This document shows, in pieces, positions 1,721-62,511 of a stretch of DNA of 64,000 nt. This stretch comes from Sterolibacterium denitrificans. Its GTDB lineage: Bacteria; Pseudomonadota; Gammaproteobacteria; Burkholderiales; Rhodocyclaceae. Positions within the stretch are counted from its first letter, which is position 1; every line of letters begins with the position of its first letter. The stretch is taken from NCBI RefSeq assembly GCF_900174485.1, contig NZ_LT837803.1:2681305-2745304 (forward strand). Direction: 5' to 3'. A program made the position numbers and the translations under genes. The notes beneath the pieces are model-generated. The model saw nothing but the letters and a program-made list of their open reading frames with translations, did not search any database and was not told where the DNA came from.

Positions 1721-2473
1721 TCAGAAATCGCCCCACAATGCCATCATCGCGGCCAGCGCCGCCAGCCCTGCAGTCTCGGTACGCAAGATGCGCGGGCCGA
1801 GACGCAGCGGCTGAAAACCGACCGAACGCGCCATGTCCTCCTCGGCCGCCTCAAAGCCACCCTCCGGACCAGCCAGCAACTGGATTTCACCGGCTGGCCG
1901 AGGTAGATCGGCAAGGCGCGCGCCCTGATGCGGCGATAGCAACAGACGCAGCGGCACTGCCGGCGCGCCGGCAAGATAGTCGGGCAAATCCAGCAGCTCA
2001 CGCACTTCCGGCAGGCGATTGCGCCCCGACTGCTCGCATGCGGCTACCGCCACCTGCCGCCAATGAACCATGCGCCTGGCGGCACGCTCGCCCCCCAGAC
2101 GCACCACGCTGCGCCTGGCCTGCACCGGCTGGATGGCCGCCACGCCCAATTCCACCGCTTTCTGGATCACCAGATCCATCTTGTCGCCGCCCGGCAGGGC
2201 CTGGATCAGCGTAACGCGCAGCGGCGCCTCGCGTTCGACCTCATGCCAGGCATCCAGCCTGGCCAACAGCCTGCGGCCGGCGCCGGAGCCAGACTCGACG
2301 ATCACCGCCTGATACTCCCCGCCCGTGCCATCGAACAGCACCACGGCATCGCCCGCCCGCAGGCGCAGAACCTTCGCGGCATGATGCGCCACTTCGTCCG
2401 GCAAGACCACGGTGCGGCCAGGCGCCAGCCGCGCAGCGGCAGCGGTATCCGGACAGTAAAAGCGCGCTATCAT
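1721..2473 (-). CDS. rsmE: 16S rRNA (uracil(1498)-N3)-methyltransferase
   Basis: A 250-residue SPOUT-class methyltransferase that makes m3U1498 in the decoding region of 16S rRNA. Visible family features are the N-terminal PUA-like part (RFYCPD, then LPDEVAHHAAKVLRL), GGDKMDLVIQKAVELGV in the middle, and the SAM-binding knot LLAGPEGGF followed by LGPRILRTETA. The start at 2473 gives the usual RsmE N-terminus; upstream in-frame codons overlap the divergent redoxin gene and were discarded. About 100 bases separate it from argA on the same strand. Confidence 0.93.
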   Translation of the reverse strand: MIARFYCPDTAAAARLAPGRTVVLPDEVAHHAAKVLRLRAGDAVVLFDGTGGEYQAVIVESGSGAGRRLLARLDAWHEVEREAPLRVTLIQALPGGDKMDLVIQKAVELGVAAIQPVQARRSVVRLGGERAARRMVHWRQVAVAACEQSGRNRLPEVRELLDLPDYLAGAPAVPLRLLLSPHQGARLADLPRPAGEIQLLAGPEGGFEAAEEDMARSVGFQPLRLGPRILRTETAGLAALAAMMALWGDF

Positions 2474-2501
2474 CGGCCGATTATATGACGAGGAAACGGC
2501 C

Positions 2502-3059
2502 ATGGTCAGCACCACCACCCCACTCTGCGACTTCGGCTGGCGCGCCGTTCCCTTCGATCTGACGGGAACCGACGGCCGGCGCCATACGCTCGAATCCGCG
2601 CGCGGACCGAACGGCCTGCTGGTGATGTTCATCTGCAACCATTGCCCCTACGTCAAGGCCATCCTGCCGCGCCTGCTGCGCGATACGCGCGAGCTGGCGT
2701 CACTGGGGATCGGCAGCATCGCCATCATGGCCAATGATCCGGGCGAGTATCCCGAGGATTCCTGGGACAACATGCAGCGCATCGCCCGGGAACTGAATTT
2801 CTCCTTCCCCTATGTCCTTGACGCCACTCAGGAAACGGCCCGCGCCTATGGCGCAGTGTGCACTCCGGACTTTTTCGGTTTCAATGCCCGGCTCGAACTC
2901 CAGTACCGTGGCCGTCTCGACGCCTCCCGCAAGGAAGCCGCTGACGCGGATGCCCGGCGCGAGCTGTTCGAGGCGATGAAGCACGTCGGGGAAACCGGAC
3001 GCGGCCCGTCCGGGCAAATACCGAGCATCGGCTGCTCGATCAAGTGGCGCGGTGCCTGA
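2502..3059 (+). CDS. Thioredoxin-fold redoxin (AhpC/TSA-like)
   Basis: A 185-residue protein of the thioredoxin/redoxin superfamily. It has MFICNHCPYVKAILPRL near residues 43-60, giving a CxxC-type active-site pair (C-N-H-C) at the expected place after the first beta strand. Later comes AVCTPDFFGF, where cis-Pro and an extra Cys sit as in AhpC/TSA-like redoxins. There is no signal peptide, so it is probably cytoplasmic. It diverges from rsmE across only 28 bases. Substrate unknown; a thiol peroxidase or general disulfide reductase role is an inference from the fold. Confidence 0.8.
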   Translation: MVSTTTPLCDFGWRAVPFDLTGTDGRRHTLESARGPNGLLVMFICNHCPYVKAILPRLLRDTRELASLGIGSIAIMANDPGEYPEDSWDNMQRIARELNFSFPYVLDATQETARAYGAVCTPDFFGFNARLELQYRGRLDASRKEAADADARRELFEAMKHVGETGRGPSGQIPSIGCSIKWRGA

Positions 3060-3145
3060 AGCAGGGAGGAAAGAAGGAAAACGAGAAAAGGAGAAAAATA
3101 CAGCCTCAAATTATATGATCTGCACCTATTTTTTTGATTTCCGGC

Positions 3146-3154
3146 TGCTATAAT
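3146..3154 (+). promoter_or_regulatory. Extended -10 promoter for the small lipoprotein gene
   Basis: The stretch reads TGCTATAAT, a perfect extended -10 element (TGn followed by TATAAT), 74 bases before the lipoprotein start. No convincing -35 hexamer lies 16-18 bases upstream, as expected for extended -10 promoters. The surroundings are AT-rich against a GC-rich background. Confidence 0.65.
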
Positions 3155-3227
3155 GCTCGACTGATTGGAGTAACTTCCAGTCATTGACGAAAAATTTTCC
3201 TCGCCCTCACCGACTAAAGGAATCAAA

Positions 3228-3452
3228 ATGAAACATTCTCTCCTCGTTGCTGCTCTGCTTGCCCTGTCCGTTGCCGCTTGCGGCAAAACGGAAGCCCCGG
3301 CTGTTGAAGCTCCCGCTGTTGAAGCCCCGGCTGCCGAAGCTCCCGCAGCCCCGGCGACCGAAGCGCCGGCTGCCGAAGGCGCTGCTGCTGAAGCTCCGGC
3401 CGCTGCCGAAGCCCCGGCTGCCGAAGAAAACAAGGAAAACGCTGCGCAGTAA
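3228..3452 (+). CDS. Small Ala/Pro/Glu-rich lipoprotein
   Basis: A 74-residue protein with a lipoprotein signal peptide: MKHSLLVAALLALSVAAC with a lipobox (VAAC), so Cys18 is the likely lipidated residue. The mature part is almost entirely a low-complexity repeat of EAPA/AEAPAA units and ends ENKENAAQ. The start has a purine-rich stretch (AAGGAATC) upstream. An extended -10 promoter precedes it and a strong hairpin terminator follows, so it is probably transcribed alone. Similar small Ala/Pro-rich lipoproteins are usually annotated as hypothetical; I assign no function. A periplasmic spacer or tether is possible. Confidence 0.8.
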   Translation: MKHSLLVAALLALSVAACGKTEAPAVEAPAVEAPAAEAPAAPATEAPAAEGAAAEAPAAAEAPAAEENKENAAQ

Positions 3453-3469
3453 TCAGCGTCGCGTCCCGC

Positions 3470-3499
3470 AAAAAAGCCAGCCCTCGGGCTGGCTTTTTT
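3470..3499. terminator. Rho-independent terminator, usable in both directions
   Basis: A perfect stem (AAAAAAGCCAGCCC / GGGCTGGCTTTTTT) with a 2-base centre TC lies 18 bases after the lipoprotein stop. A-run and T-run on the two sides let it work on either strand. Confidence 0.85.
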
Positions 3500-3611
3500 G
3501 CTTCTTGAATTCGTCATTCCATGAACAACGGATGATGAGAATGCCGGCGGCAGGGCGCGGCAACTCGCGTACCGACAACTGCCCCGCCCGTCCTGTACCC
3601 TGAGGCAACGC

Positions 3612-4745
3612 CTACTTCAACTGCTCCAGCAACAGCTTGAGTATCTTGCGTGCCGTGGCAGAATCATCCGGCGCGCCGTCGTGCGTCTGGATACGCACCA
3701 GGCTGGCATTGCCTTCACCCTTGACGATCACCCGCAACTGCGCCGCCGTTTTGGGATCCACCTTGTCGCTCTTCCAGAACATCATGCGCGAAAGGATGCC
3801 CTTGCTCTCCTGCTTCTTGCCCGGCTCCACATCCGCTTCCGGATCGACATAGCGGACGAAATACGTGCCCTTGGCGCGGTCCCGATCCTCGACCGTGAAG
3901 TTCACCCGATCCAGCGCCAGGCCGATACGCCGCCAGGCACGGTCAAAGGATTCCTGCACGGTCAGCACATCGCCGGACGCACTGAGTCTGGCGCGATCTT
4001 CGGTTTGCTGCGGACTGGCCAGCATGGTCTTGGCCCGCTCGCCATCCACGCCCAGACGCACCATCAGGCGCTGCAGCATTTCCGCCTCCAGCTCGGGATC
4101 GGCAGGACGCGGCTGCCAGCGCGTCTCGCTCTTTCCTTCATTGGTGTAGATCTCCATCATGCCGCGATGGCTGATGTAGATTTCGGTCGTTCCCGGCGTG
4201 CTTCCCTGCTCCAGACGGGTGCGGAACTTATCGCGCTCGGCGGTCGAATAAAGGAAATCCAGCGCCTTGCCGATCGTACCGCGGATGAAGTCCTGCGGCA
4301 GCTTGGCGCGGTTTTCATTCCAGTCGGTTTCCATGACGCCGGCCTCGGGCATTTCAGTGACCAGCGAAAAACCGATACCCTGCCAGAATTCCTTCAACGT
4401 CGGCCAATATTTATCCGGCGTACCCGGGGCGACCAGCCAGCGCTGCGTGCCGTCGCGCTCGATACGAACGTTGTCTACCTGCGGCAGCACGCCGGCATCG
4501 CTGCGGCGTGCCAGCAAGCCGCGTTCGTCGCTGTATTCCGAGAAAGTCGTCGCCGCCTTGCCGGCGTCGGGAATCGCATAGCGCTCGTCGCGCGCCGGCG
4601 ACGTCAGGTCGGGTGGCACTTCCAGCGTCGGCAGTTTGCCGGCGGACTTGTAGTCGATCTTCTTCGATTCGATCAGGGTGCCGCTGCAACCTGCCAGCAC
4701 CAGGGCGGAAATTATCAGTGACGACAACAGCAGATTGGGCTTCAT
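3612..4745 (-). CDS. bamC: Outer membrane assembly lipoprotein BamC (NlpB)
   Basis: A 377-residue lipoprotein of the BAM complex, which folds beta-barrel proteins into the outer membrane. It begins with a signal peptide and lipobox (LVLAGC), followed by an unstructured segment with LPTLEVPPDLTSP, the conserved stretch that binds BamD in E. coli. Two helix-grip domains follow (about residues 90-215 and 255-370). It lies 29 bases after dapA on the same strand, as in the dapA-bamC operon of E. coli. The start at 4745 puts the signal peptide at the N-terminus; an upstream in-frame start at 4766 adds 7 residues. Confidence 0.92.
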   Translation of the reverse strand: MKPNLLLSSLIISALVLAGCSGTLIESKKIDYKSAGKLPTLEVPPDLTSPARDERYAIPDAGKAATTFSEYSDERGLLARRSDAGVLPQVDNVRIERDGTQRWLVAPGTPDKYWPTLKEFWQGIGFSLVTEMPEAGVMETDWNENRAKLPQDFIRGTIGKALDFLYSTAERDKFRTRLEQGSTPGTTEIYISHRGMMEIYTNEGKSETRWQPRPADPELEAEMLQRLMVRLGVDGERAKTMLASPQQTEDRARLSASGDVLTVQESFDRAWRRIGLALDRVNFTVEDRDRAKGTYFVRYVDPEADVEPGKKQESKGILSRMMFWKSDKVDPKTAAQLRVIVKGEGNASLVRIQTHDGAPDDSATARKILKLLLEQLK

Positions 4746-4774
4746 GCAGACCTCTTCACTCTTCAAACGGCAAA

Positions 4775-5659
4775 TCAGGTATCGAGAGAAATATCCGCCT
4801 CGTTCAGCGCGAGGCGCAGACGCTCGTGATATTCGACAGCAAACGGCGTCAGGGGCAGACGCAAACCGTCCATCATTTTACCCATGCGCGCCAGCGCCCA
4901 CTTGACCGGAATGGGATTGGCTTCGAGAAACAGATTGCGATGCAGGCCCAGCAGACGAAAATTGATCTCGCGTGCCCGCCGCACGTCGCCGGCCAATGCC
5001 GCCACGCACATCTCGTGCATCAGACGCGGCGCCACATTGGCGGTGACCGAAATCGTCCCATGCGCGCCAAGCAGGATCAGCGCCAGTGCGGAAGCATCAT
5101 CCCCGCTGTAGATGGCAAAACCCTGCGGCGCGCGCTTGATCAGATCGCTGCCGCGCTCGATGTTGCCGGTGGCGTCCTTGATGCCGACGATGCCCGGCAC
5201 CTGCGCCAGACGCAATGCCGTCTCATTCGACAGATCGCAACTGGTACGGCCCGGCACGTTGTAGAGCACCAGCGGCAGGTCGACGGCCTCGGCAATCGTC
5301 CTGAAATGACGATACAGACCCTCCTGCGGCGGCTTGTTGTAATAGGGCACCACCGACAGGTGCGCCGTCGCGCCCACATCCTTGGCAAACTGCGCCAGCT
5401 CGATGGCTTCCGCCGTCGAGTTGGCGCCGGTACCGGCGATCACCGGCACTCGCCCGGCGGACTGTTCGACGGCCGTCTGGATCAACTGGCAGTGCTCTTC
5501 GACATCGACCGTCGGCGACTCGCCGGTCGTGCCGACCATGACCAGGGCATCCGAACCCTCCGCAATATGCCAGTCGATGAAACTGCGCAGACGCGGCAGA
5601 TCGAGGCTGCCGTCCTCGAACATCGGGGTGGCGATGGCAGGTATGGAACCGGTGATCAT
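4775..5659 (-). CDS. dapA: 4-hydroxy-tetrahydrodipicolinate synthase
   Basis: A 294-residue aldolase that condenses pyruvate with aspartate semialdehyde in lysine and diaminopimelate synthesis. Catalytic residues are in place: Schiff-base Lys161 in GIKDATG, Tyr133 in LYNVPGRT, Arg138, the TTGE loop at residues 44-47, and Tyr107 from the adjacent subunit. Length matches E. coli DapA (292). First gene of a dapA-bamC pair. No clear Shine-Dalgarno is visible before the ATG. Confidence 0.96.
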
Positions 5660-5713
5660 TGGGGAGGTAGATATCGAAAAGGGGAAATTTTACTCGAAAC
5701 CTTCTGCAACCTT

Positions 5714-6637
5714 CTATAAATCGGCCAGAACCTTGATGTGCGCGGCGACGCTGCGACCGAGGGCCGACAGGGCGTAGCCCCCCTCCAGCATGGACACGAT
5801 GCGCCCCTGCGCCGAGTCGGCGGCAATGCGCATGAGCTGCTCCGTCACCCAGGCGTAGTCGGCCTCGACCAGGCCCAGCGAGGCCATGTCATCCTCTGCG
5901 TGCGCATCGAAACCAGCGGAGATGCAGACCAGTTCGGGCGCGAATTCACGCAGGCGCGGCAGCCAGAGCGTGCCGACCACTTCACGAAAGCCCTCGCCCC
6001 GCGTGCCCGCCGGCAACGGCACATTGAGCATGTTGGCAGCAGCATGCCCGGTGCCGCTGTATGGGTAGAAAGGATGCTGGAAGCTGCCGACCATCAGCAC
6101 ATCTTCCCTGCCGGCCAGTATCTGCTCCGTGCCATTGCCGTGATGCACGTCGAAATCGACCACGGCGACCCGCTCGAGTCCCCAAGCCTCGATGCCGTGC
6201 AGGGCCGCAATGGCAATGTTGTTGAAAAAACAGAAGCCCATGGCGCGCGCGCGCTCGGCATGATGTCCGGGCGGACGCACGGCGCAGAAAGCATTCGCCA
6301 CCTGCCCCTGCATGACCAGATCCGTCGCCAGCACACCGGCGCCGGCCGCCCGCAATGCGGCATTCCAGGTACCGGGGCTCATGGCGGTATCCGGATCGAG
6401 ATGCACGATGCCCTGCTGCGGCGCGCTGTCGGCCAGGGTTTCGAGATAGGGCCGGGCATGCGCGCGCAGCAACTGCTCCATGCTCGCCTGCGGCGCCTCA
6501 TGGTATTCCAGATGAACGTCCAGGCCGGCGGCGATCAAGCGATCGTTGATGGCATCGAGGCGATCCGGACATTCCGGATGTTGCGCCCCCATGTCGTGCA
6601 GCCGGCAATCACGATGGGTGACGAAGGCAGTCGTCAT
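5714..6637 (-). CDS. Histone-deacetylase-fold amidohydrolase
   Basis: A 307-residue protein of the bacterial HDAC/acetoin-utilisation/acetylpolyamine amidohydrolase superfamily. The active site is visible: RPPGHHAE with the His pair at 125-126, VDFDVHHGNGT with Zn ligands Asp161/Asp163 and His165, ISAGFDAH with Asp244, and EGGY near 285. It removes acyl groups from an amine or lysine; the real substrate (protein lysine, polyamine or another amide) cannot be told from sequence. It diverges from the MoxR operon across about 100 bases. Confidence 0.88.
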   Translation of the reverse strand: MTTAFVTHRDCRLHDMGAQHPECPDRLDAINDRLIAAGLDVHLEYHEAPQASMEQLLRAHARPYLETLADSAPQQGIVHLDPDTAMSPGTWNAALRAAGAGVLATDLVMQGQVANAFCAVRPPGHHAERARAMGFCFFNNIAIAALHGIEAWGLERVAVVDFDVHHGNGTEQILAGREDVLMVGSFQHPFYPYSGTGHAAANMLNVPLPAGTRGEGFREVVGTLWLPRLREFAPELVCISAGFDAHAEDDMASLGLVEADYAWVTEQLMRIAADSAQGRIVSMLEGGYALSALGRSVAAHIKVLADL

Positions 6638-37959: not shown

Positions 37960-39255
<1,296 letters not shown>

Positions 39256-39638
39256 GATGTTCAGTCCTTGATTCCAATTGGTCAGAGTCAGAATTTTGAG
39301 TGGCTTGATTTGTGGCATCGCCGACGCACCTTGGGAGCGCGCAGGGGCGATGTCCATCCACGAGGCAGCCAGAGATCGAGTCTGACGAACCGGCAAGGCG
39401 GCAAGGGTTGCGCCGCCTTCTACGGACTCAAGGGCACGGGTGGTCGCCGTCGAGTTCGTGCAGGATCAAAGTATAGGTTAACTTGCTGCAGAGCACCAAA
39501 TAAAACCATCGTTTGAAACAATTTATTTATTCAAGCAATTTCAAAAAGATATTTTTCTTGTTTTGTATAACGAAACATACTTCTCATACATGAAATCTAA
39601 ACTATGCTGCGCCGCATCAGGCAGATACCGAGGCTGTT
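39256..39638. other. Intergenic region upstream of aceA
   Basis: This 383-base gap between rraA and aceA (both minus strand) has a GC-rich half near aceA that forms a leader of about 200 bases. An AT-rich half (about 39480-39600) contains the aceA promoter and inverted TTTGAAA/TTTCAAA half-sites around 39512-39550 that could bind a regulator. No gene or RNA was recognised. Confidence 0.6.
39470..39499 (-). promoter_or_regulatory. Likely sigma-70 promoter of aceA
   Basis: On the minus strand TTGGTG (-35, at 39499-39494) and TATACT (-10, at 39475-39470) are 18 bases apart, about 215 bases upstream of the aceA start. Confidence 0.55.
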
Positions 39639-40145
39639 TCAGGCAAGCGCCGTCTGGCTGACGATCACTCCGTCTGCGTCGGCATAGAGAAAATGCCCCG
39701 GCACGAAGCTGACGCCGCCGAAAGTCACGGCGAGGTCGGCCTCGCCGACATTTCGCTTGATACTCTTCAGCGGATGCGTGGCCAGCGCAAACACACCCAG
39801 CGCCATGCTGCCGATGGCGCGCGAATCGCGGATGCAGCCATACACTACGATGCCCGCCCAGCCATTCTTCACCGCCAGTTCGGCCAGTTGATCGCCCACC
39901 AGGGCGCAGCGCAGCGAGCCGCCGCCATCGATCACCAGCACGCGGCCATTGCCCGGCTGTGACAGCGCCGTGCGCACCAGCGAGTTGTCCTCGAACACTT
40001 TCAGCGTGCTGATCGGCCCGCCGAAGACGGCCCGGCCGCCGTAGGAGCGGAACATCGGCGCGACGACATGCAGCGTGCCGGCATTGAGGCCGGCTTCGTT
40101 GGCATCGAGCAAATCGGCCGTGGCAAACGGTATTTCCAGCGACAT
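39639..40145 (-). CDS. RraA-family protein
   Basis: A 168-residue member of the RraA/HMG-aldolase family. Motifs include ATADLLDAN at the start, [30 protein letters not shown] and [11 protein letters not shown], with the Arg-Asp pair that binds metal in the aldolase members. It could be the RNase E inhibitor RraA or a 4-hydroxy-4-methyl-2-oxoglutarate-type aldolase; sequence alone does not decide. The ATG at 40145 has GGGAG upstream. It is divergent from the TonB-dependent receptor gene. Confidence 0.82.
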
Positions 40146-40211
40146 TTGAACTTCTCCCAACCAAAATTTGCAGCATAAACCATGAGCCAGGAAGACCCCA
40201 CAGCAAGCACA

Positions 40212-40239
40212 AACGCGAATCATTCTTATTTGCTAAAAT
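40212..40239 (+). promoter_or_regulatory. Fur-like box overlapping an extended -10 promoter
   Basis: The reverse complement of 40212-40230 matches the palindromic AATGAGAATGATTCTCATT form of the Fur box at 16 of 19 positions by eye. Immediately downstream TGCTAAAAT (40231-40239) is an extended -10 element. Binding here would block the receptor promoter. Confidence 0.6.
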
Positions 40240-40331
40240 ACGATGATCTCGCGGTGTGCTGATTTTCTGTTTTTCCCCGCTCAGCTCAGCTCACCCCATT
40301 CACCGCTTCACTCATTGCCTGCGGAGTCGTC

Positions 40332-42455
40332 ATGTCATCCACGTTCGTTCCACCCCATGCTTCCCGACTTGCCCCTCTGGCTGCTGCGATTGCCGCGCTT
40401 TGCGGCAGCGCGCTGGCGCATGCCGAAGCCGAAACCACGCTGGCCCCGGTCAGCGTGACGGCCAAGGGCTATGAAGCCGATACCCTGTCCACGCCGTCCT
40501 CGGTCTTCGTTGCCGACGGCGACGAACTGCGCAAGAACGGCGCCGGCAACCTCGGCGAGGCGCTGCGCGGCGAGCCGGGCTTCGCCGTCAACAGCGACAG
40601 CGCGCAGGGCATGAATCCGGTGATCCGCGGCCTGAAGAAGGAAAGCATCGTGCTGCTGGTCGACGGCATGCGCTTCAACTCGGCGCAGCCGGCCGGCGCC
40701 ATCGCCTCGTTCATGTCGTTCGGGCTGGCCGAGCGCGTCGAGGCGGTGAAGGGAGCGGCCTCGGTGCTCTACGGCACCGGCGCGCTCGGCGGCGCGATCA
40801 ACGTGCTGACGCCGCAAGCGCGCTTCGAGCCGGGCGTGAAACTCTCGGCCGGCGCCAGCTACGACAGCGCCAGCAAGGGCCTGCGCGGCACCGGCGTGGG
40901 CAATTTCTCCTCGGGCGACCACGCATTGATGCTCGGCGCCTCGCTCGCGCGCATCGACGACTACGAAGCGCCGGACGGCCGCGTCAACCGCACCGGCTAC
41001 GATTCCGACAGCTTCATCGGCCAGTACCGCTTCCGCATCGACGGCCAGCAGCAATTACGCCTGTCGCTGCAGACGCACCAGGACGAGGACATCTGGTATC
41101 CGGGCTCGACCAAGCCCTTCACCCACCCCAATCCCGGCGTCGCCACCGCCGTCGGCAGCACCACCGTGCACTCGCCGAAGCAGGAGCGCACGCTGGCCGA
41201 GGCCGGCTACAGCTACAAGGGCACGGGCGAGTCGCCGTTCAACTTCGACGTCCGCGTCTGGCGGCAGGAAATGGAGCGCACCATCTACGCCTGGTCGCCC
41301 AACCTGAACCGCGACATCACCACGACCCACGTCAACTTCAGCACCGACGGCTTCGACGCCCGCGCCGACTGGCTGGTGCATCCGCAGCATCTGCTCTCCT
41401 TCGGCGTGAACCTGTGGGACATGGACGCCTCGCCGAACCGCCTGAACGCCAACCCGCCGAACAGTACCAACTACGTGCGCACCGATCCCTTCACCAACGG
41501 CCGCATCCGCGCCGCCGGCTTCTACGTGCAGGACGACATGCGCTTCGGCAAGCTGAGCCTGCTTGCCGCCGGCCGCTATGACAAGGTCAAGGGCCGCGCC
41601 GATTCGGTGGCGAACTCGGCCAACCCAACCGGCACTCGCGTCACCACCGGACTCGACCGCAGCGACGGCGCCTTCTCCGGCAGCCTCGGCGCCAGCTATG
41701 AACTCGCTCCGCTGCTGCGCCCTTACGCCAACCTGTCGCGCGGTTTCCGCGCCGGCGAGATGCGCGAACGCTACGAATCCTCACCGCGCGGCGACGGCTA
41801 TTTCTACGTCGGCAACCCGCAGGTGAAGCCGGAAATCTCGACGCAGTTCGAAGTCGGCATCAAGGGCCAGGACGAAACCCTGGTCTGGTCGGCAGCCCTC
41901 TACCGCAACCGCATCAAGGACTACATGAGCGGCCTGGACATCTCCGGCACGGGCACCGCCACCACGCTCTGCGGCCCCAATGCCGGCGCCTGCAAGCAGA
42001 CGGTGAACATCAGCAAGGTGGTCATCGACGGCTTCGAGGCGCAGGGCAAGTGGCAGGTCTGGCAGGGACACTGGCTGAAGGCCGGCCTCTCCGTGCTGCG
42101 CGGCGACAACGAGGACCTGAACGAGCCGCTGTTCCAGATGCCCGCCGACGAACTCGCCCTCGGCTGGGAAGGCCATGTCGCGCCAGGCTGGACGGCCGAC
42201 CTTACCGGCCGCTTCGTGCGCGAGCAGAACCGCGTGGCCACCGTCTTCACGCGCGGCACCGAGAACCGTACCGCGGGCTTCGTCACCGCCGACCTCGGCG
42301 CGACGTATCGCCTGAACAAGCAGCACAGCTTCCGCGTGGCGCTGAAGAACGCCTTCGACCGCGAGTATCATGAGCACCTCACCGAAGGCATCTCCGGCCA
42401 GGAAATCCACATGCCGGGCCGCAGCCTGGTGGTCTCGTGGAAAGGCGACTTCTGA
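40332..42455 (+). CDS. TonB-dependent outer membrane receptor, heme/hemoglobin-receptor-like
   Basis: A 707-residue outer-membrane receptor. The signal peptide covers about residues 1-31, followed by a likely TonB box region (TTLAPVSVTA), a plug domain (SVFVADGDELRKNGAGNLGEALRGEPG, RVEAVKGAASVLYGTGALGGAINV) and a 22-strand barrel ending in SLVVSWKGDF. FRAGEMRERY and NPQVKPE resemble the FRAP and NPNL boxes of heme receptors. One loop has a Cys pair (CGPNAGAC). It heads an ABC-NnrS cluster, so its ligand may be heme, a copper complex or another cofactor; unproven. Confidence 0.88.
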   Translation: MSSTFVPPHASRLAPLAAAIAALCGSALAHAEAETTLAPVSVTAKGYEADTLSTPSSVFVADGDELRKNGAGNLGEALRGEPGFAVNSDSAQGMNPVIRGLKKESIVLLVDGMRFNSAQPAGAIASFMSFGLAERVEAVKGAASVLYGTGALGGAINVLTPQARFEPGVKLSAGASYDSASKGLRGTGVGNFSSGDHALMLGASLARIDDYEAPDGRVNRTGYDSDSFIGQYRFRIDGQQQLRLSLQTHQDEDIWYPGSTKPFTHPNPGVATAVGSTTVHSPKQERTLAEAGYSYKGTGESPFNFDVRVWRQEMERTIYAWSPNLNRDITTTHVNFSTDGFDARADWLVHPQHLLSFGVNLWDMDASPNRLNANPPNSTNYVRTDPFTNGRIRAAGFYVQDDMRFGKLSLLAAGRYDKVKGRADSVANSANPTGTRVTTGLDRSDGAFSGSLGASYELAPLLRPYANLSRGFRAGEMRERYESSPRGDGYFYVGNPQVKPEISTQFEVGIKGQDETLVWSAALYRNRIKDYMSGLDISGTGTATTLCGPNAGACKQTVNISKVVIDGFEAQGKWQVWQGHWLKAGLSVLRGDNEDLNEPLFQMPADELALGWEGHVAPGWTADLTGRFVREQNRVATVFTRGTENRTAGFVTADLGATYRLNKQHSFRVALKNAFDREYHEHLTEGISGQEIHMPGRSLVVSWKGDF

Positions 42456-42555
42456 CATTGCCGATACCTGATACCCGATGAATGAACCCGCCCCGGCCAG
42501 TCGCCGGGGTTCAGGATTCGGCTCTCCGACCACCGACACCGACGAGGAATGCCGG

Positions 42556-43587
42556 ATGACTGCTATCCACCACCGCCTGCGCCGGACGATCGGCGGTTGC
42601 CTGAGGGCCATCGCCCTCGCCGCTACCGTTTTCGCTGCCGCGCCCGCCATCGCCGGCAAGCTGCCGAAGCTCACGCTTTCCGGCCCCTTCGCCGCCGTTT
42701 CCTATCCGCTGATCCACATCGCCGAAAGCGGCGCCTTGAAGGACGTGGCCGAGACGGTCGAGTTCGTGTCGTGGAAAAATCCGGACCAGCTGCGCGTGCT
42801 GGCCATCGACGGCAAGAGCAAGGTCGACTTCATCGCCATGCCGACCAACGTCGCCGCCAATCTCTACAACCGCGGCGTGAAACTGCAACTGGTCAACGTC
42901 TCGACCTGGGGCGTGCTCTGGCTGGTCTCGCGCGACAAATCGCTGAAGACGCTCGCCGACTTCCAGGGCAAGGAAGTGCTGATGCCCTTCCGCGCCGACA
43001 TGCCGGACATCGTCTTCCAAACGCTCGCCGAGAAGGCCGGACTCGATCCGAAAAAGAACTTCCGCCTGCGCTACGTCGGCAGCCCGCTCGACGCGATGCA
43101 GTTGCTCATCGCCCGCCGCGCCGACCACGCGCTGCTCTCCGAGCCGGCGGTGTCGATGGCGCTGCGCAAAACAAAATCCTTCCCGGTCAACCTCATCGCG
43201 CCGGATCTCTACCGCAGCGTCGACCTGCAGCAGGAATGGGGCCGGCTGATGCAGCGCGAAGCGCGCATCCCGCAGGCCGGCATCGCCGCCATGGGTCAGG
43301 CGCTCGCCAACCCGGCGCTGGTCGAACGCTTCCAGCGCGCCTACGCCGCCTCGCTCAAGTGGTGCGAGGACAAGCCGGACGAATGCGGCGCGATGGTCGC
43401 CAGACATATCGACATGCTGACGCCGGAAGCCGTCGCCGACTCGGTACGCGCCGACCGCACGGCTTTCGTCACTGCTGCCGATGCCCGTCCGGAACTGGAG
43501 TTTTTCTTCACCCAACTGCACGCGCGCCAACCGGCGCTGATCGGCGGCAAGCTGCCCGGCGATGCGTTCTACTGGCCGGGAAAGTGA
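42556..43587 (+). CDS. ABC transporter substrate-binding protein (NMT1/SsuA-like)
   Basis: A 343-residue periplasmic protein. The signal peptide ends AAPAIAG. The fold matches the nitrate/sulfonate/NMT1-type family: LTLSGPFAAVSYPLIHIAESG, VDFIAMPTNVAANLYNRG, and LLSEPAVSMAL. Two Cys (WCEDKPDEC) lie in the C-terminal half. GAGGAATGCC precedes the ATG at 42556. It is 100 bases after the receptor gene, across a GC-rich imperfect hairpin. The ligand is not identifiable; members bind small organic or oxyanion ligands. Confidence 0.88.
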   Translation: MTAIHHRLRRTIGGCLRAIALAATVFAAAPAIAGKLPKLTLSGPFAAVSYPLIHIAESGALKDVAETVEFVSWKNPDQLRVLAIDGKSKVDFIAMPTNVAANLYNRGVKLQLVNVSTWGVLWLVSRDKSLKTLADFQGKEVLMPFRADMPDIVFQTLAEKAGLDPKKNFRLRYVGSPLDAMQLLIARRADHALLSEPAVSMALRKTKSFPVNLIAPDLYRSVDLQQEWGRLMQREARIPQAGIAAMGQALANPALVERFQRAYAASLKWCEDKPDECGAMVARHIDMLTPEAVADSVRADRTAFVTAADARPELEFFFTQLHARQPALIGGKLPGDAFYWPGK

Positions 43588-43660
43588 TAGGCTACGCGGC
43601 TCTTCACCCTGACCTCCGATGCCTGGCGCCTGACTCCGCAGGGGCCATTCCAAGCACTTC

Positions 43661-44464
43661 ATGAAACTCCTGCGCGCCTGGTTCATCGGCATCCCCCGCT
43701 ATTTGTGGAGCGGCTGGGGCGCCATCGCCAGCCTGTTCCTGCTGATGGCCCTGTGGGAAGGCACCAGCAGCCTCTACGGCGAACTGATCCTGCCCGATCC
43801 GCTGACCGTCTGGCACGCCTTTCAGACGCTGCTGGAAAACGGCCAGGCCGGCGCGGAACTGCTCATCACCGCGCGCCGCGCCCTGCTCGGCCTGGGCCTG
43901 GCAATCCTCGCCGGCAGCCTGCTCGGCATGCTGGCCGGCATCTCGCTGACGGCCTCCATGGTCTCGCGGCCACTGGTCACCGCCCTGCTCGGCACACCGC
44001 CGATCGCCTGGCTGGTGCTGGCCATGCTGTGGTTCGGCGCCAGCGACGGCACGCCGGTCTTCACCGTCTTCATCGCCTGTTTCCCGGTGATCTTCATCGG
44101 CGCCCTGCAGGGCACGCGCACCCTCGACGGCCAGTTGCGCGAAATGGCCACGGTCTTCCGCCTGCCGGCGCGCATGAAGCTCTTCGACCTCTACTTGCCG
44201 CACGTCATCTCCTACCTGTTTCCGGCCTGGATCACCGCCCTGGGCACTTCCTGGAAAGTCGTGGTGATGGCCGAACTGTTCGCCAGCGCCGATGGCGTCG
44301 GCGCAGCGCTGGCAGTGAGCCGCTCGCAACTGGACACCGCCACCACCCTGGCCTGGATCGCTGCCGTGGTACTGACCCTGCTGGCCATCGAATATCTGCT
44401 GCTCGAACCGATCAAGCGCGAGCTGGAGCGCTGGCGCCAACCGGATCGGCAAGCCGGCGCATGA
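43661..44464 (+). CDS. ABC transporter permease (SsuC/TauC-like)
   Basis: A 267-residue inner-membrane permease with about six helices. The coupling loop for the ATPase is REMATVFRLPARMKLFDLYLPH. It is the MetI-like permease type used by sulfonate, taurine and nitrate importers. Its stop overlaps the ATPase start (ATGA at 44461). Confidence 0.92.
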   Translation: MKLLRAWFIGIPRYLWSGWGAIASLFLLMALWEGTSSLYGELILPDPLTVWHAFQTLLENGQAGAELLITARRALLGLGLAILAGSLLGMLAGISLTASMVSRPLVTALLGTPPIAWLVLAMLWFGASDGTPVFTVFIACFPVIFIGALQGTRTLDGQLREMATVFRLPARMKLFDLYLPHVISYLFPAWITALGTSWKVVVMAELFASADGVGAALAVSRSQLDTATTLAWIAAVVLTLLAIEYLLLEPIKRELERWRQPDRQAGA

Positions 44465-45279
44465 ACACCGCACCCAGCCTGACGCTCTCCGGCGTCTCCC
44501 ATGCCTACGCCCCGCGCACGGTGCTGGAGGACATCGCGCTGGAACTACCGGCCGGACGCACCCTGGCCCTGGTCGGCCCGTCCGGCTGCGGCAAGACCAC
44601 CCTGCTGCACCTGTGCGCGGGCCTGCTCACCCTGCAGGAAGGCCAGTTGAAAAACGGTTTCCTGCGGCCGGCCGTGATGTTCCAGCAGCCGCGCCTGCTG
44701 CCCTGGAAAACCACCCTCGACAACATCGCCCTGGGCCTCAAGGCCGGCGGCATGGACAAGCGCCAGCGCCAGACCCGCGCCAGCGCCATGGCCCGCGCCG
44801 TCGGACTGGACGCGCTGGCGCTGGAGCAGTTTCCCCATGAACTCTCCGGCGGCATGCAAAGCCGCGCCGCACTGGCTCGCGCGCTGGTGCTGAATCCGGA
44901 CCTGCTGCTGATGGACGAGCCTTTTTCCGCCCTCGACATCGGCCTGAAAAGCCAGCTTCACCGCCTGCTGCTCGACCATCAGGCCGAATACGGCCTGGCC
45001 GTGCTGATGATTACCCACGACCTGATGGAAGCCGTGCGCCTGGCCGACACCCTGCTGGTGATGGCCAGCGAGCCTGGCCGCATCGTCCAGCGCATCGACA
45101 TTCCCACGCCGCGCAGCCGCCGCAGCGAACTTGAAGTTCACCAGACCACCGCGCGTCTGCTGCAGGAGCCAGCCGTATGCGCCAGCTTCGGCCTAGCGCT
45201 TGCGCCGCCGCCTGACACTCCCGCAGCGGCAGCGGATGTCGCGGGCGTGGGCGGCAGCACCCTGGAAATCCATCCATGA
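44461..45279 (+). CDS. ABC transporter ATPase (SsuB/TauB-like)
   Basis: A 272-residue ATPase. Walker A GPSGCGKTT, Q-loop QQPRLLPW, signature LSGGM, Walker B LLLMDEPF and switch His in THD are all intact. It pairs with the preceding permease. The C-terminal tail (PPPDTPAAAADVAGVGG) is unusual and not part of the ATPase fold. Its stop overlaps the nnrS ATG (ATGA), so NnrS is translationally coupled to the transporter. Confidence 0.93.
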   Translation: MNTAPSLTLSGVSHAYAPRTVLEDIALELPAGRTLALVGPSGCGKTTLLHLCAGLLTLQEGQLKNGFLRPAVMFQQPRLLPWKTTLDNIALGLKAGGMDKRQRQTRASAMARAVGLDALALEQFPHELSGGMQSRAALARALVLNPDLLLMDEPFSALDIGLKSQLHRLLLDHQAEYGLAVLMITHDLMEAVRLADTLLVMASEPGRIVQRIDIPTPRSRRSELEVHQTTARLLQEPAVCASFGLALAPPPDTPAAAADVAGVGGSTLEIHP

Positions 45280-46544
45280 TTTCCCTGAAGACCGCCGACC
45301 ATCCGCTCTGGCTATGCGGCTTCCGGCCTTTCTTCCTGGCCGCCGCGTTCAGCCTGATCCTGCTGATCCCGCTCTGGCTGTTCTTTCTCGGCGCGCCTTT
45401 TGGCCTCGCCCTGCCGCTGCCCCAGGTGCCGGGCGGCGCTACCATCTGGCATGCCCATGAACTGCTGTTCGGCTTCGTCCTCGCCGCCCTGGCCGGCTTC
45501 GTGCTGACCGCCGTTCCCGAATTCACCCTCGCGCCCCCGGTACCACCCGCGCAGGTACGCCTGCTGGCCGGGCTCTGGCTACTGGGCCGCCTGGGCTTCT
45601 GGTGCGCCGGGCTACTGGGCAAACCGGCGCTGGCGATTGCCGGTCTGGCGCACCTGGGCCTGGTCGCCGGACTGCTCGTCCTGCTGGCGCCGCGCATCTG
45701 GCACGCCCCGGCGCGCCGCCACCTGTCCTTCATCTGGGCGATGCTGGGCCTCATCCTCTGCATCGGCGGCTTCTACCTGGACGCCTTGCGCGACGGCGAC
45801 GTCGCCCGCTGGCTGCATGCCATGGTCGGACTGATGATGATTTTCATCGTCCTCGCGCTCAGCCGCATCTCGATGCGCATCGTCAATCAGGCAATCGACG
45901 AATGGCGCGAACGCCACCCTGCCGCCGCAGACGCCGATGCCGATGCCGAACCGACGGAATACCGTGCCCGGCCGCCCAAGCGCAATCTGGCGATCAGTTG
46001 CATCGCCGCCTACACCGTGGCCGAATTCTTCCTGCCCGAGTCGCGCCTGTCCGGCTGGCTGGCGCTGGCCGCCGCCGCGGCCCTGCTGCACCTGCACAGC
46101 GACTGGCACATTGGCCGCGCCTTGCTGCGGCGCTGGCCGCTGATGCTGTTCGGCGTCTATGTGCTGATGGCCGCCGGTTACGCGCTGATCGGCATCGCTC
46201 TGGTATCCGGCGGCGACGGCTTTTCCGCCGGCCGCCACATGCTCACCATCGGCGCCATGGGACTGGCCATCTACTGCGTCTTCAACATCGCTGGCCGCAT
46301 CCACTGCGGCCACCCCATGGACGAACGCCCGTGGGTGCCGGTCGGCGCCGCGCTTCTGGTGCTGGCCGCCGGGCTGCGCGCCGCCGAGATCCTGCCCGAT
46401 GCGAATGTCCTCGGCCTCTACCAGCTCGCCGCCTTCGCCTTGGTACTGCCCTACGCCGTCTGGCTGTGGCGGATGTGGCCGCTGCTCACCCGGCCGCGCC
46501 AGGACGGCCTGGGCGGCTGCGATGATTATGTGGAGAAGACCTGA
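45276..46544 (+). CDS. nnrS: NnrS-family heme/copper membrane protein
   Basis: A 422-residue protein with about 12 helices. Family marks are WLCGFRPFFLAAA at the start, IWHAHELLFGFVLAALAGFVLTAVPEF, GLYQLAAFALV, and INQAIDEWRE-like VNQAIDEWRE in the middle. NnrS proteins bind heme and copper and are linked to nitric oxide stress in denitrifiers. It is the last gene of the receptor-ABC cluster and overlaps the ATPase by four bases. It converges on clpA; a 7-bp hairpin at 46557-46574 lies between the stops. Confidence 0.93.
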   Translation: MISLKTADHPLWLCGFRPFFLAAAFSLILLIPLWLFFLGAPFGLALPLPQVPGGATIWHAHELLFGFVLAALAGFVLTAVPEFTLAPPVPPAQVRLLAGLWLLGRLGFWCAGLLGKPALAIAGLAHLGLVAGLLVLLAPRIWHAPARRHLSFIWAMLGLILCIGGFYLDALRDGDVARWLHAMVGLMMIFIVLALSRISMRIVNQAIDEWRERHPAAADADADAEPTEYRARPPKRNLAISCIAAYTVAEFFLPESRLSGWLALAAAAALLHLHSDWHIGRALLRRWPLMLFGVYVLMAAGYALIGIALVSGGDGFSAGRHMLTIGAMGLAIYCVFNIAGRIHCGHPMDERPWVPVGAALLVLAAGLRAAEILPDANVLGLYQLAAFALVLPYAVWLWRMWPLLTRPRQDGLGGCDDYVEKT

Positions 46545-46600
46545 AGCGCGTGATCACGCAATCGCATGATTGCGCAGGCCGGCGGACACGCGGGCACGTT

Positions 46601-48874
46601 TCAGCCCAGTGAGCCCAGCGCTTCCGCGGCTTCCTCGGCAAACGTCAGTTTCACCTGCTGGTTTTCGTCCAGATCGATGGTCACGCGGCCACCGCCGGCC
46701 AAGCGGCCGAACAGCAGTTCATCGGCCAGCGCGGCGCGGATGCTGTCCTGGATCAAACGGGCCATGGGACGCGCGCCCATCAGCGGATCGAAACCCTTTT
46801 CCGCCAGCCAGGCGCGGAGTTGATCGGTGAAAATCGCCTCGACTTTCTTCTCGTGCAACTGCGCTTCGAGCTGCATGAGGAACTTGTCGACCACCTGCAG
46901 GATGACCTGCGCATCGAGGGCGGCGAAGGAAATATTGGCATCCAGGCGGTTGCGAAACTCGGGCGTGAACAGGCGCTTGATTTCGGCGATCTCATCACCC
47001 GCCTGCTTGCTGCTGGTGAAGCCCATGCTCGGCTTCTGCAGGGCTTCGGCGCCGGCATTCGTCGTCATGATGATGATCACGTTGCGGAAATCCGCCTTGC
47101 GGCCATTGTTGTCGGTGAGCGTGCCGTGGTCCATCACCTGCAGCAGGATATTGAAAATGTCCGGATGGGCCTTTTCGATTTCATCGAGCAGCAGCACGGC
47201 ATGCGGCTTCTTGGTGATCGCCTCGGTCAGCAGCCCGCCCTGGTCGAAGCCGACATAGCCCGGCGGCGCGCCGATCAGGCGGCTCACCGCGTGGCGCTCC
47301 ATGTACTCCGACATGTCGAAACGCACCAGCTCGATGCCCATGCAATAGGCAAGCTGGCGCGCCACCTCGGTCTTGCCGACCCCGGTCGGGCCGGAAAACA
47401 GGAAGCTGCCGATCGGCTTGTCCGGATTGCCCAGCCCCGAGCGCGACATCTTGATCGCCCTGGCCAGCGCCTCGATGGCGCGATCCTGACCGAACACCAC
47501 GGCCTTCACGTCGCGCTCCAGATTCTTCAGCGTATTGCGGTCGTCGCTGGAAACATGCTGCGGCGGAATGCGCGCGATGCGGGCGACGATTTCCTCGATC
47601 TCGGTCTTGCCGATCAGCTTCTTCTGCTTCGACTTCGGCAGGATGCGCTGGGCCGCGCCCGCCTCGTCGATGACGTCGATGGCCTTGTCGGGCAGATGGC
47701 GGTCGGTGATGTAGCGGGCCGACAGCTCGGCCGCGCTGCTGATCGCCGCCGCCGAATACTTGATGCCGTGATGTTCCTCGAAACGCGACTTCAGACCGCG
47801 CAGGATGGCCACGGTTTCCCCAATCGACGGCTCGCCGACGTCGATCTTCTGGAAACGCCGCGAGAGCGCATGATCCTTCTCGAAAATGCCGCGATACTCC
47901 TGATAGGTCGTCGCCCCGATGCACTTCAGGCTGCCGCTCGACAGCGCCGGCTTGAGCAGGTTGGACGCATCCAGCGTGCCGCCCGAAGCCGCGCCCGCGC
48001 CGATCAGGGTATGGATCTCGTCGATGAACAGCACCGCATTCGGCAACTCGGCAAGCTGCTTCAATACCGCCTTCAAACGCTGCTCGAAATCGCCGCGGTA
48101 CTTGGTGCCGGCCAGCAACGACCCCATGTCGAGCGCATAAACGGTCGCATCACCGAGAACTTCCGGCACCTTGCCTTCATTGATCTGCCGCGCCAGCCCT
48201 TCGGCAATCGCCGTCTTGCCCACGCCGGCTTCGCCGACCAGCAGCGGATTGTTCTTGCGCCGCCGGCACAGCGTCTGCACCACACGCTCCAGCTCCCTGT
48301 CGCGGCCGATCAGCGGATCGATCTTGCCCTGCTGCGCCTGAAGATTGAGATTCAGCGCATAGTTCTCCAGCGCCCCGCCGCCCGCCGGTCCCTCCTGCTC
48401 CGGCTCGCCCTGCTCGGCCTCGCCGCGCGTCACCGGCTGGGCATTCTTGCTGATGCCGTGGGAGATGTAATTCACCACGTCCAGCCGGCTGACATTCTGC
48501 CGCTGGAGAAAATACACCGCATGCGAATCCTTCTCGCCGTAGATCGCCACCAGCACGTTCGCCCCCAGCACCTCCTTCTTGCCGGAAGACTGCACATGCA
48601 AAATGGCGCGCTGGATCACCCGCTGAAAGCCCAGCGTGGGCTGGGTCTCGATGGAATCACTGCCCGTCACGGTCGGCGTATGCTCGGTAATAAAGCTGAT
48701 CAACTCGCGCCGCAGTTCTTCGATGTTTGCCGCGCAGGCGCGCAGCACCTCGGCCGCCGAAGGATTGTCGAGCAGCGACAGCAGCAGATGCTCGACGGTA
48801 ATGAATTCGTGACGCTTCTGCCGGGCATCGACGAAGGCCATGTGCAGACTGACTTCGAGTTCCTGCGCGATCAT
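46601..48874 (-). CDS. clpA: ATP-dependent Clp protease ATPase subunit ClpA
   Basis: A 757-residue AAA+ unfoldase with an N-terminal Clp_N domain ([26 protein letters not shown]) and two AAA modules (GEAGVGKT and GPTGVGKT, Walker B LFIDEIH and [11 protein letters not shown]). It feeds substrates to ClpP. The ClpP-binding loop of the second module is expected near residue 610. It lies one base after clpS, so the two are co-transcribed. Confidence 0.96.
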
Positions 48875-62472: not shown

Positions 62473-62511
62473 TTGACATCTCCCGGCAATTTAATGAGAA
62501 TAGTTATCATT
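62473..62511 (+). promoter_or_regulatory. Promoter and Fur-like box of tonB-exbB
   Basis: TTGACA (62473-62478) and GAGAAT (62496-62501) are 17 bases apart. The second overlaps AATGAGAATAGTTATCATT (62493-62511), which matches the AATGAGAATGATTCTCATT Fur form at 16 of 19 positions by eye. Confidence 0.65.

Follow-up and report, generated by a model that had tools for sequence, protein, structure and literature searches.

To gain insight into what is imported by a gene cluster that joins a heme-receptor-like TonB-dependent receptor to an NMT1-type ABC importer, and into why the cluster carries the membrane protein NnrS, we performed bioinformatic and comparative genomic analyses of the window (the whole stretch of 64,000 nucleotides analyzed) and of related loci in other genomes. 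Five genes lie in the same direction on the forward (+) strand. These encode: (i) a heme-receptor-like TonB-dependent receptor (TBDR) of 707 amino acids (40332..42455; Pfam Plug and TonB barrel); (ii) a periplasmic binding protein (SBP) with an NMT1/PqqT/SsuA-type fold and a likely signal peptide (42556..43587; Pfam NMT1), whose ORF has an alternative in-frame start at 42478; (iii) an ABC permease of the NMT1/SsuC/TauC class (43661..44464; Pfam BPD_transp_1); (iv) an ABC ATPase (44461..45279; Pfam ABC_tran); and (v) an NnrS protein of an ABC-linked subfamily (45276..46544; PF05940) with a predicted heme-copper-oxidase fold. Gaps of 100 bp and 73 bp separate the receptor gene from the SBP gene and the SBP gene from the permease gene, respectively, and ATGA overlaps join permease to ATPase (44461-44464) and ATPase to NnrS (45276-45279). 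A Fur-like operator with three mismatches to AATGAGAATNATTCTCATT lies 5' of the receptor gene (40212..40230, no strand assigned), and is followed by the -10-like hexamer TAAAAT (40234-40239). The five-gene order, the coupling of the last three genes and the Fur-like box had all been described in a first-pass annotation, and each was recovered in our ORF, Pfam and motif scans. The five genes probably form one transcription unit. No RNA family was found by Rfam in 39000-47500, and the neighbors directly beside the operon in the window give no functional clue.

The same gene order recurs in many Rhodocyclales and Burkholderiales, in Thiobacillus and in some Gammaproteobacteria. To collect these loci, the SBP was scanned against 200 genomes of the window's order and then against public genome contigs (query: a six-sequence SBP alignment), from which the best 80 of 463 relatives were retrieved. 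Among these 80 loci, which were chosen by SBP similarity so that the figures describe near relatives, permease and ATPase follow the SBP in 70 of the 72 loci with enough DNA, NnrS follows the ABC genes in 62 of 64, and a homologous TBDR lies upstream in 58 of 72; some relatives have an unrelated receptor upstream, or none. The first-pass annotation had proposed a search for this order across genomes, and had held that the grouping would be fortuitous if homologous clusters usually lacked NnrS or the receptor; the opposite was found. Since the flanking genes vary, the five genes are the unit. Their arrangement is not a product of chance. The far more distant loci L037-L039, with SBPs about 29-37% identical, retain NnrS, and a scan of viral contigs returned no relatives. 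As for the surroundings of individual clusters, a FepA-type siderophore receptor gene lies on the opposite strand between SBP and permease in one locus (L034:9188-11479), a gene for a DUF2325 protein is often found 4-5 kb after the SBP (L052:6937-8253 and 13 other loci) and sometimes beside a true heme receptor, and a P-type ATPase gene and a FeoA-like gene, read from the sequence, are present near another cluster (L076:14105-18640).

The operon goes together with denitrification genes. In the 200-genome sample, eight genomes encode the SBP at E < 1e-30. An NO-forming nitrite reductase gene (nirS or nirK) is present in all eight carriers vs 68 of 192 non-carriers (p=3e-4), and nosZ in seven of eight vs 23 of 192 (p=6e-6). 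Of 63 named carriers, nosZ is present in 44 and nirS in 14 of the 19 others, so that 58 have nosZ and/or nirS; gene absences in this set are soft, because some of the genomes are draft bins. The anticipated correlation of the operon with denitrification genes was therefore upheld, and the association may reflect a shared lifestyle. The denitrifiers' need for iron, heme and copper is high just when NO attacks iron.

We next consider the promoter. Matches to AATGAGAATNATTCTCATT with at most three mismatches occur only twice in the 64 kb of the window (0.00 expected from 100 shuffles), before the receptor gene and at 62493-62511, immediately 5' of a tonB-exbB operon (from 62537 on). tonB-exbB is a classical Fur target. 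The promoter of the five-gene operon in the window qualifies for the Fur regulon by sequence, through the predicted operator at 40212-40230. No TTGATNNNNATCAA-like FNR/DNR box was found near 40332 in the window at one mismatch or fewer, though such boxes are common in relatives, and the GCCAGCC leader of relatives is absent from the window operon. We compared 57 upstream regions with 302 control regions of the same loci, a comparison whose p-values are a guide only because related genomes are not independent. A Fur box (at least 14/18) lies 5' of the receptor gene in 24/57 regions vs 38/302 controls, and an FNR-type box (at least 9/10; the motif does not separate FNR from DNR) in 31/57 vs 11/302. 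In 23 of the 30 loci with both boxes, the FNR centre lies 14.5-16.5 bp upstream of the Fur centre. Motifs for CueR, Zur, NsrR, CopR and the B12 box showed no enrichment upstream of the operon.

About a third of the upstream regions (20/57 vs 12/302 controls) also contain a repeated leader with at least three copies of GCCAGC, which is perhaps the target of a small RNA or a protein. Elsewhere in the same genomes this leader mostly precedes genes for bacterioferritin, Dps-katG, TonB-ExbBD, FecI-like proteins and TBDRs (identified by reading the ORFs; a few hits are chance or coding). The leader typically has the form AGCCAGC-N(3-14)-GCCAGCCAGC just 5' of the start codon (L155-L172; cluster leaders L045-L124), and the genes marked by it in Rhodocyclales relatives also include fumC. 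Fur control is a response to iron and says nothing on the identity of the substrate.

The receptor itself is most similar to heme receptors. Its best profile is TIGR01785 (hemin), at 274 bits under the cut-off of 316.85, and it reaches 241 bits against TIGR01786 (cut-off 323.75), so that the curated cut-offs do not place it among heme/hemoglobin TonB receptors; the score against the TonB-dependent copper receptor profile TIGR01778 is 111 bits, below the cut-off of 472. A profile of the receptor family searched against the PDB gave 186 bits to PhuR, 168 to ShuA, 121 to OprC and 105 to BtuB. The FRAP/NPNL-loop histidine of many heme receptors is absent, and the loop aligned to PhuR shows a tyrosine instead, a residue that certain heme receptors use. 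Regulation points to iron and receptor similarity points to heme-type ligands; hints of copper come only from distant members. Four carriers (Hydrogenophilus thiooxidans, Dechloromonas agitata, Janthinobacterium fluminis, and Denitromonas halophila) each have one FecCD permease, located in a B12-uptake-like locus, and a FecCD heme importer is therefore unlikely in these four; the lack of a spare FecCD permease is no proof that the ABC pair of the operon imports heme.

The SBP passes the Pfam NMT1 profile (PF09084; 27.2 bits, cut-off 20.5), and its score against the aliphatic sulfonate binder SsuA (TIGR01728) is 33 bits, under the 163.5 required. A search of the PDB with the SBP profile had 3hn0 as its sole match at E <= 1e-5. 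The similarity to 3hn0 is detectable in sequence as well as in fold, and includes a C-terminal GG(K/R)LPDxGF motif; its name, "nitrate transport protein", is a depositor label. The first-pass annotation had regarded tight grouping with a known sulfonate or nitrate binder as grounds for dismissing the link to the other genes, and these results show no such grouping. An AlphaFold2 model of the SBP (pLDDT 88) gave Z scores of 31.6 to 3hn0, 27.3 to PqqT, 25.9 to SsuA and 25.7 to NrtA, with values of 23-32 across PqqT, SsuA, NrtA, CmpA, TauA and Thi5. Arg, Trp and Asp residues are conserved in the family, and no conserved His is present in the alignment of relatives (L072, which contains a stop codon, and a few other rows were left out); the heme-binding proteins PhuT and HmuT differ from the SBP in this respect. 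The best NCBIfam profile for the permease is SaoP, at 95 bits vs a cut-off of 295, and the ATPase is TauB/SsuB-like, under the equivalog cut-offs.

NnrS is reported in the literature to contain heme and copper. The NnrS of the window matches PF05940 at 262 bits (gathering score 28). In a tree of the family, all 28 cluster copies form a single clade with a local support of 0.989, separate from further NnrS copies encoded in the same genomes; L184 and L186 were counted among the 28 on account of their grouping with this clade and their scores of 548-579 bits to the cluster profile. H59, H321, H343, R17 and R197 are common to the operon NnrS and other NnrS proteins, whereas residues such as E82, N204 and H278 are specific to the subfamily tied to the ABC importer. 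The premise that NnrS is not a transporter part was a fair prior, but here NnrS accompanies the ABC genes and has a clade of its own.

An AlphaFold2 model of the operon NnrS (pLDDT 92) has a predicted twelve-helix fold in common with subunit I of heme-copper oxidases and NO reductases, with Z scores of 30.1 to CcoN and 29.2 to NorB over ~370 residues. The conserved H59 and H321 lie in helices 2 and 10 of the model and may correspond to the low-spin heme ligands that oxidases and NO reductases carry in their helices 2 and 10. In contrast to these enzymes, NnrS has no conserved His of the CuB/FeB type at residues 177-213 or 233-252 (helices 6 and 7). No sequence link was found from NnrS to NorB, CcoN, CyoB or another Sinorhizobium meliloti membrane protein (except for the annotated CyoB, the S. 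meliloti proteins were taken by eye from pSymA ORFs). Because the Foldseek E value for the match to the heme-copper oxidase/NOR fold is weak (0.006) and the kinship was missed by every sequence method, the tie to the oxidases is a statement about fold. NnrS is thus predicted to be a membrane protein that binds heme and shares its fold with NO reductases and cytochrome oxidases. Confirmation of this fold would bring an orphan protein of the NO response close to an enzyme family that is well understood.

Based on these results, we tentatively propose, with slightly less than even confidence, that denitrifying beta- and gammaproteobacteria use the operon to take up an iron compound, one that may resemble heme, when oxygen is lacking, iron is in short supply and NO is formed, with NnrS protecting or processing iron or heme. 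We infer the presence of iron in the substrate, its likeness to heme, its transport by the ABC pair and such a role for NnrS. The TonB-dependent receptor would bring the iron compound into the periplasm, where the NMT1-fold SBP would deliver all or part of the compound to the permease and ATPase. The ABC-linked NnrS would then protect or redox-process incoming iron or heme that NO would otherwise trap as nitrosyl complexes. Such handling agrees with the protection of the iron pool from dinitrosyl complexes reported for NnrS (Stern, 2013, as cited in PMC11526790). In a stronger version, which appears doubtful, the ABC-linked NnrS would itself take part in import: as a membrane heme protein resembling NO reductase, it would accept, reduce or denitrosylate the iron or heme that is brought in. 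If this version holds, import would be chemically coupled to nitric oxide and NnrS would gain a defined biochemical role.

The metal could instead be copper, with the operon importing a copper complex to supply NosZ and NirK, the copper-containing denitrification enzymes, and NnrS handling the incoming copper. Among nir-positive genomes the operon is commoner where nosZ is present (7/28 vs 1/48, p=0.003), a pseudoazurin gene lies near one distant cluster (L101), and the receptor of G044 has the TonB-copper family as its best NCBIfam match, at 179 bits below the cut-off of 472. Moreover, in the distant member G176 (L038:6352-14359) the SBP, permease, ATPase and NnrS genes come after nirK and after genes whose sequences look SCO/TlpA-like and PCuAC-like; the latter are probable copper-chaperone genes, and copper therefore stays a real rival. 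We nonetheless weight iron above copper and consider a copper substrate unlikely, because regulation in the core group points to iron: its promoters have Fur boxes and the iron-gene leader, with no enrichment of CueR-type motifs. The receptor profile is also closer to heme receptors than to OprC, and the idea that the operon substitutes for the known copper receptor was rejected, as its presence is not anticorrelated with TIGR01778 in the 200 genomes and four of the eight carriers have both.

An organic cofactor that is free of metal or chelates one, whether PQQ-like or some other carboxylated quinone or chelator, would suit the binding protein, and the response to iron would then be indirect. 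Other NMT1-fold importers take such compounds; PqqT with PQQ comes next after 3hn0 for the SBP model, with SsuA and NrtA within two units; the conserved Arg, Trp and Asp and the lack of a conserved His are consistent with such a ligand; and the receptor of L037 is weakly PqqU-like (114 bits vs a cut-off of 1200). However, PqqT was undetected by the sequence profile search, its likeness being one of predicted fold alone, and a metal-free cofactor leaves the Fur and FNR control and the coupling to NnrS unexplained, so we regard this substrate as no more probable than copper. Lastly, NnrS could be a passenger without functional contact to the transporter, its gene travelling with an iron-uptake operon because denitrification calls for protection from NO as well as for iron uptake. 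NnrS is indeed found widely and is regulated by NO in many settings (PMC1274295), but the translational overlap in the window, the retention of NnrS in 62 of 64 loci and the existence of a separate clade beside the other NnrS copies of the same genomes make this the least probable of the alternatives.

The operon is widespread in denitrifying bacteria and apparently undescribed, as we found no published account of it in the open-access literature searched, which leaves out most subscription journals. By coupling the uptake of a metal or cofactor to NnrS, a conserved operon of this kind would put this long-unclear family in a concrete setting with testable partners, would suggest how the iron supply stays safe during denitrification, and would yield a further set of marker genes for denitrifiers.

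Among known systems, the Phu/Hmu/Shu heme importers are similar to the operon in having a receptor, SBP, permease and ATPase under Fur-type control, and PhuR and ShuA are the nearest receptors. The operon differs from them in that its ABC proteins belong to the NMT1/SsuC class and not to FecCD, its receptor scores under the heme cut-offs, and NnrS is present. Some loci adjoin true heme receptors, above the curated cut-off, and CobN-like genes (L056:15298-18993; 2061-6029 in both L067 and L068; and others). The CobN-like protein of L056 has a likely signal peptide at its start, recalling HmuS. A CobN-like protein is used in the HmuS-type anaerobic iron capture of Bacteroidota (PMC12583661); here, such genes are found near a minority of clusters and outside the operon. 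The plan of a receptor plus an ABC importer is thus already known, and what is new is its combination with an NMT1-class transporter, a dedicated NnrS and a joint FNR/Fur promoter.
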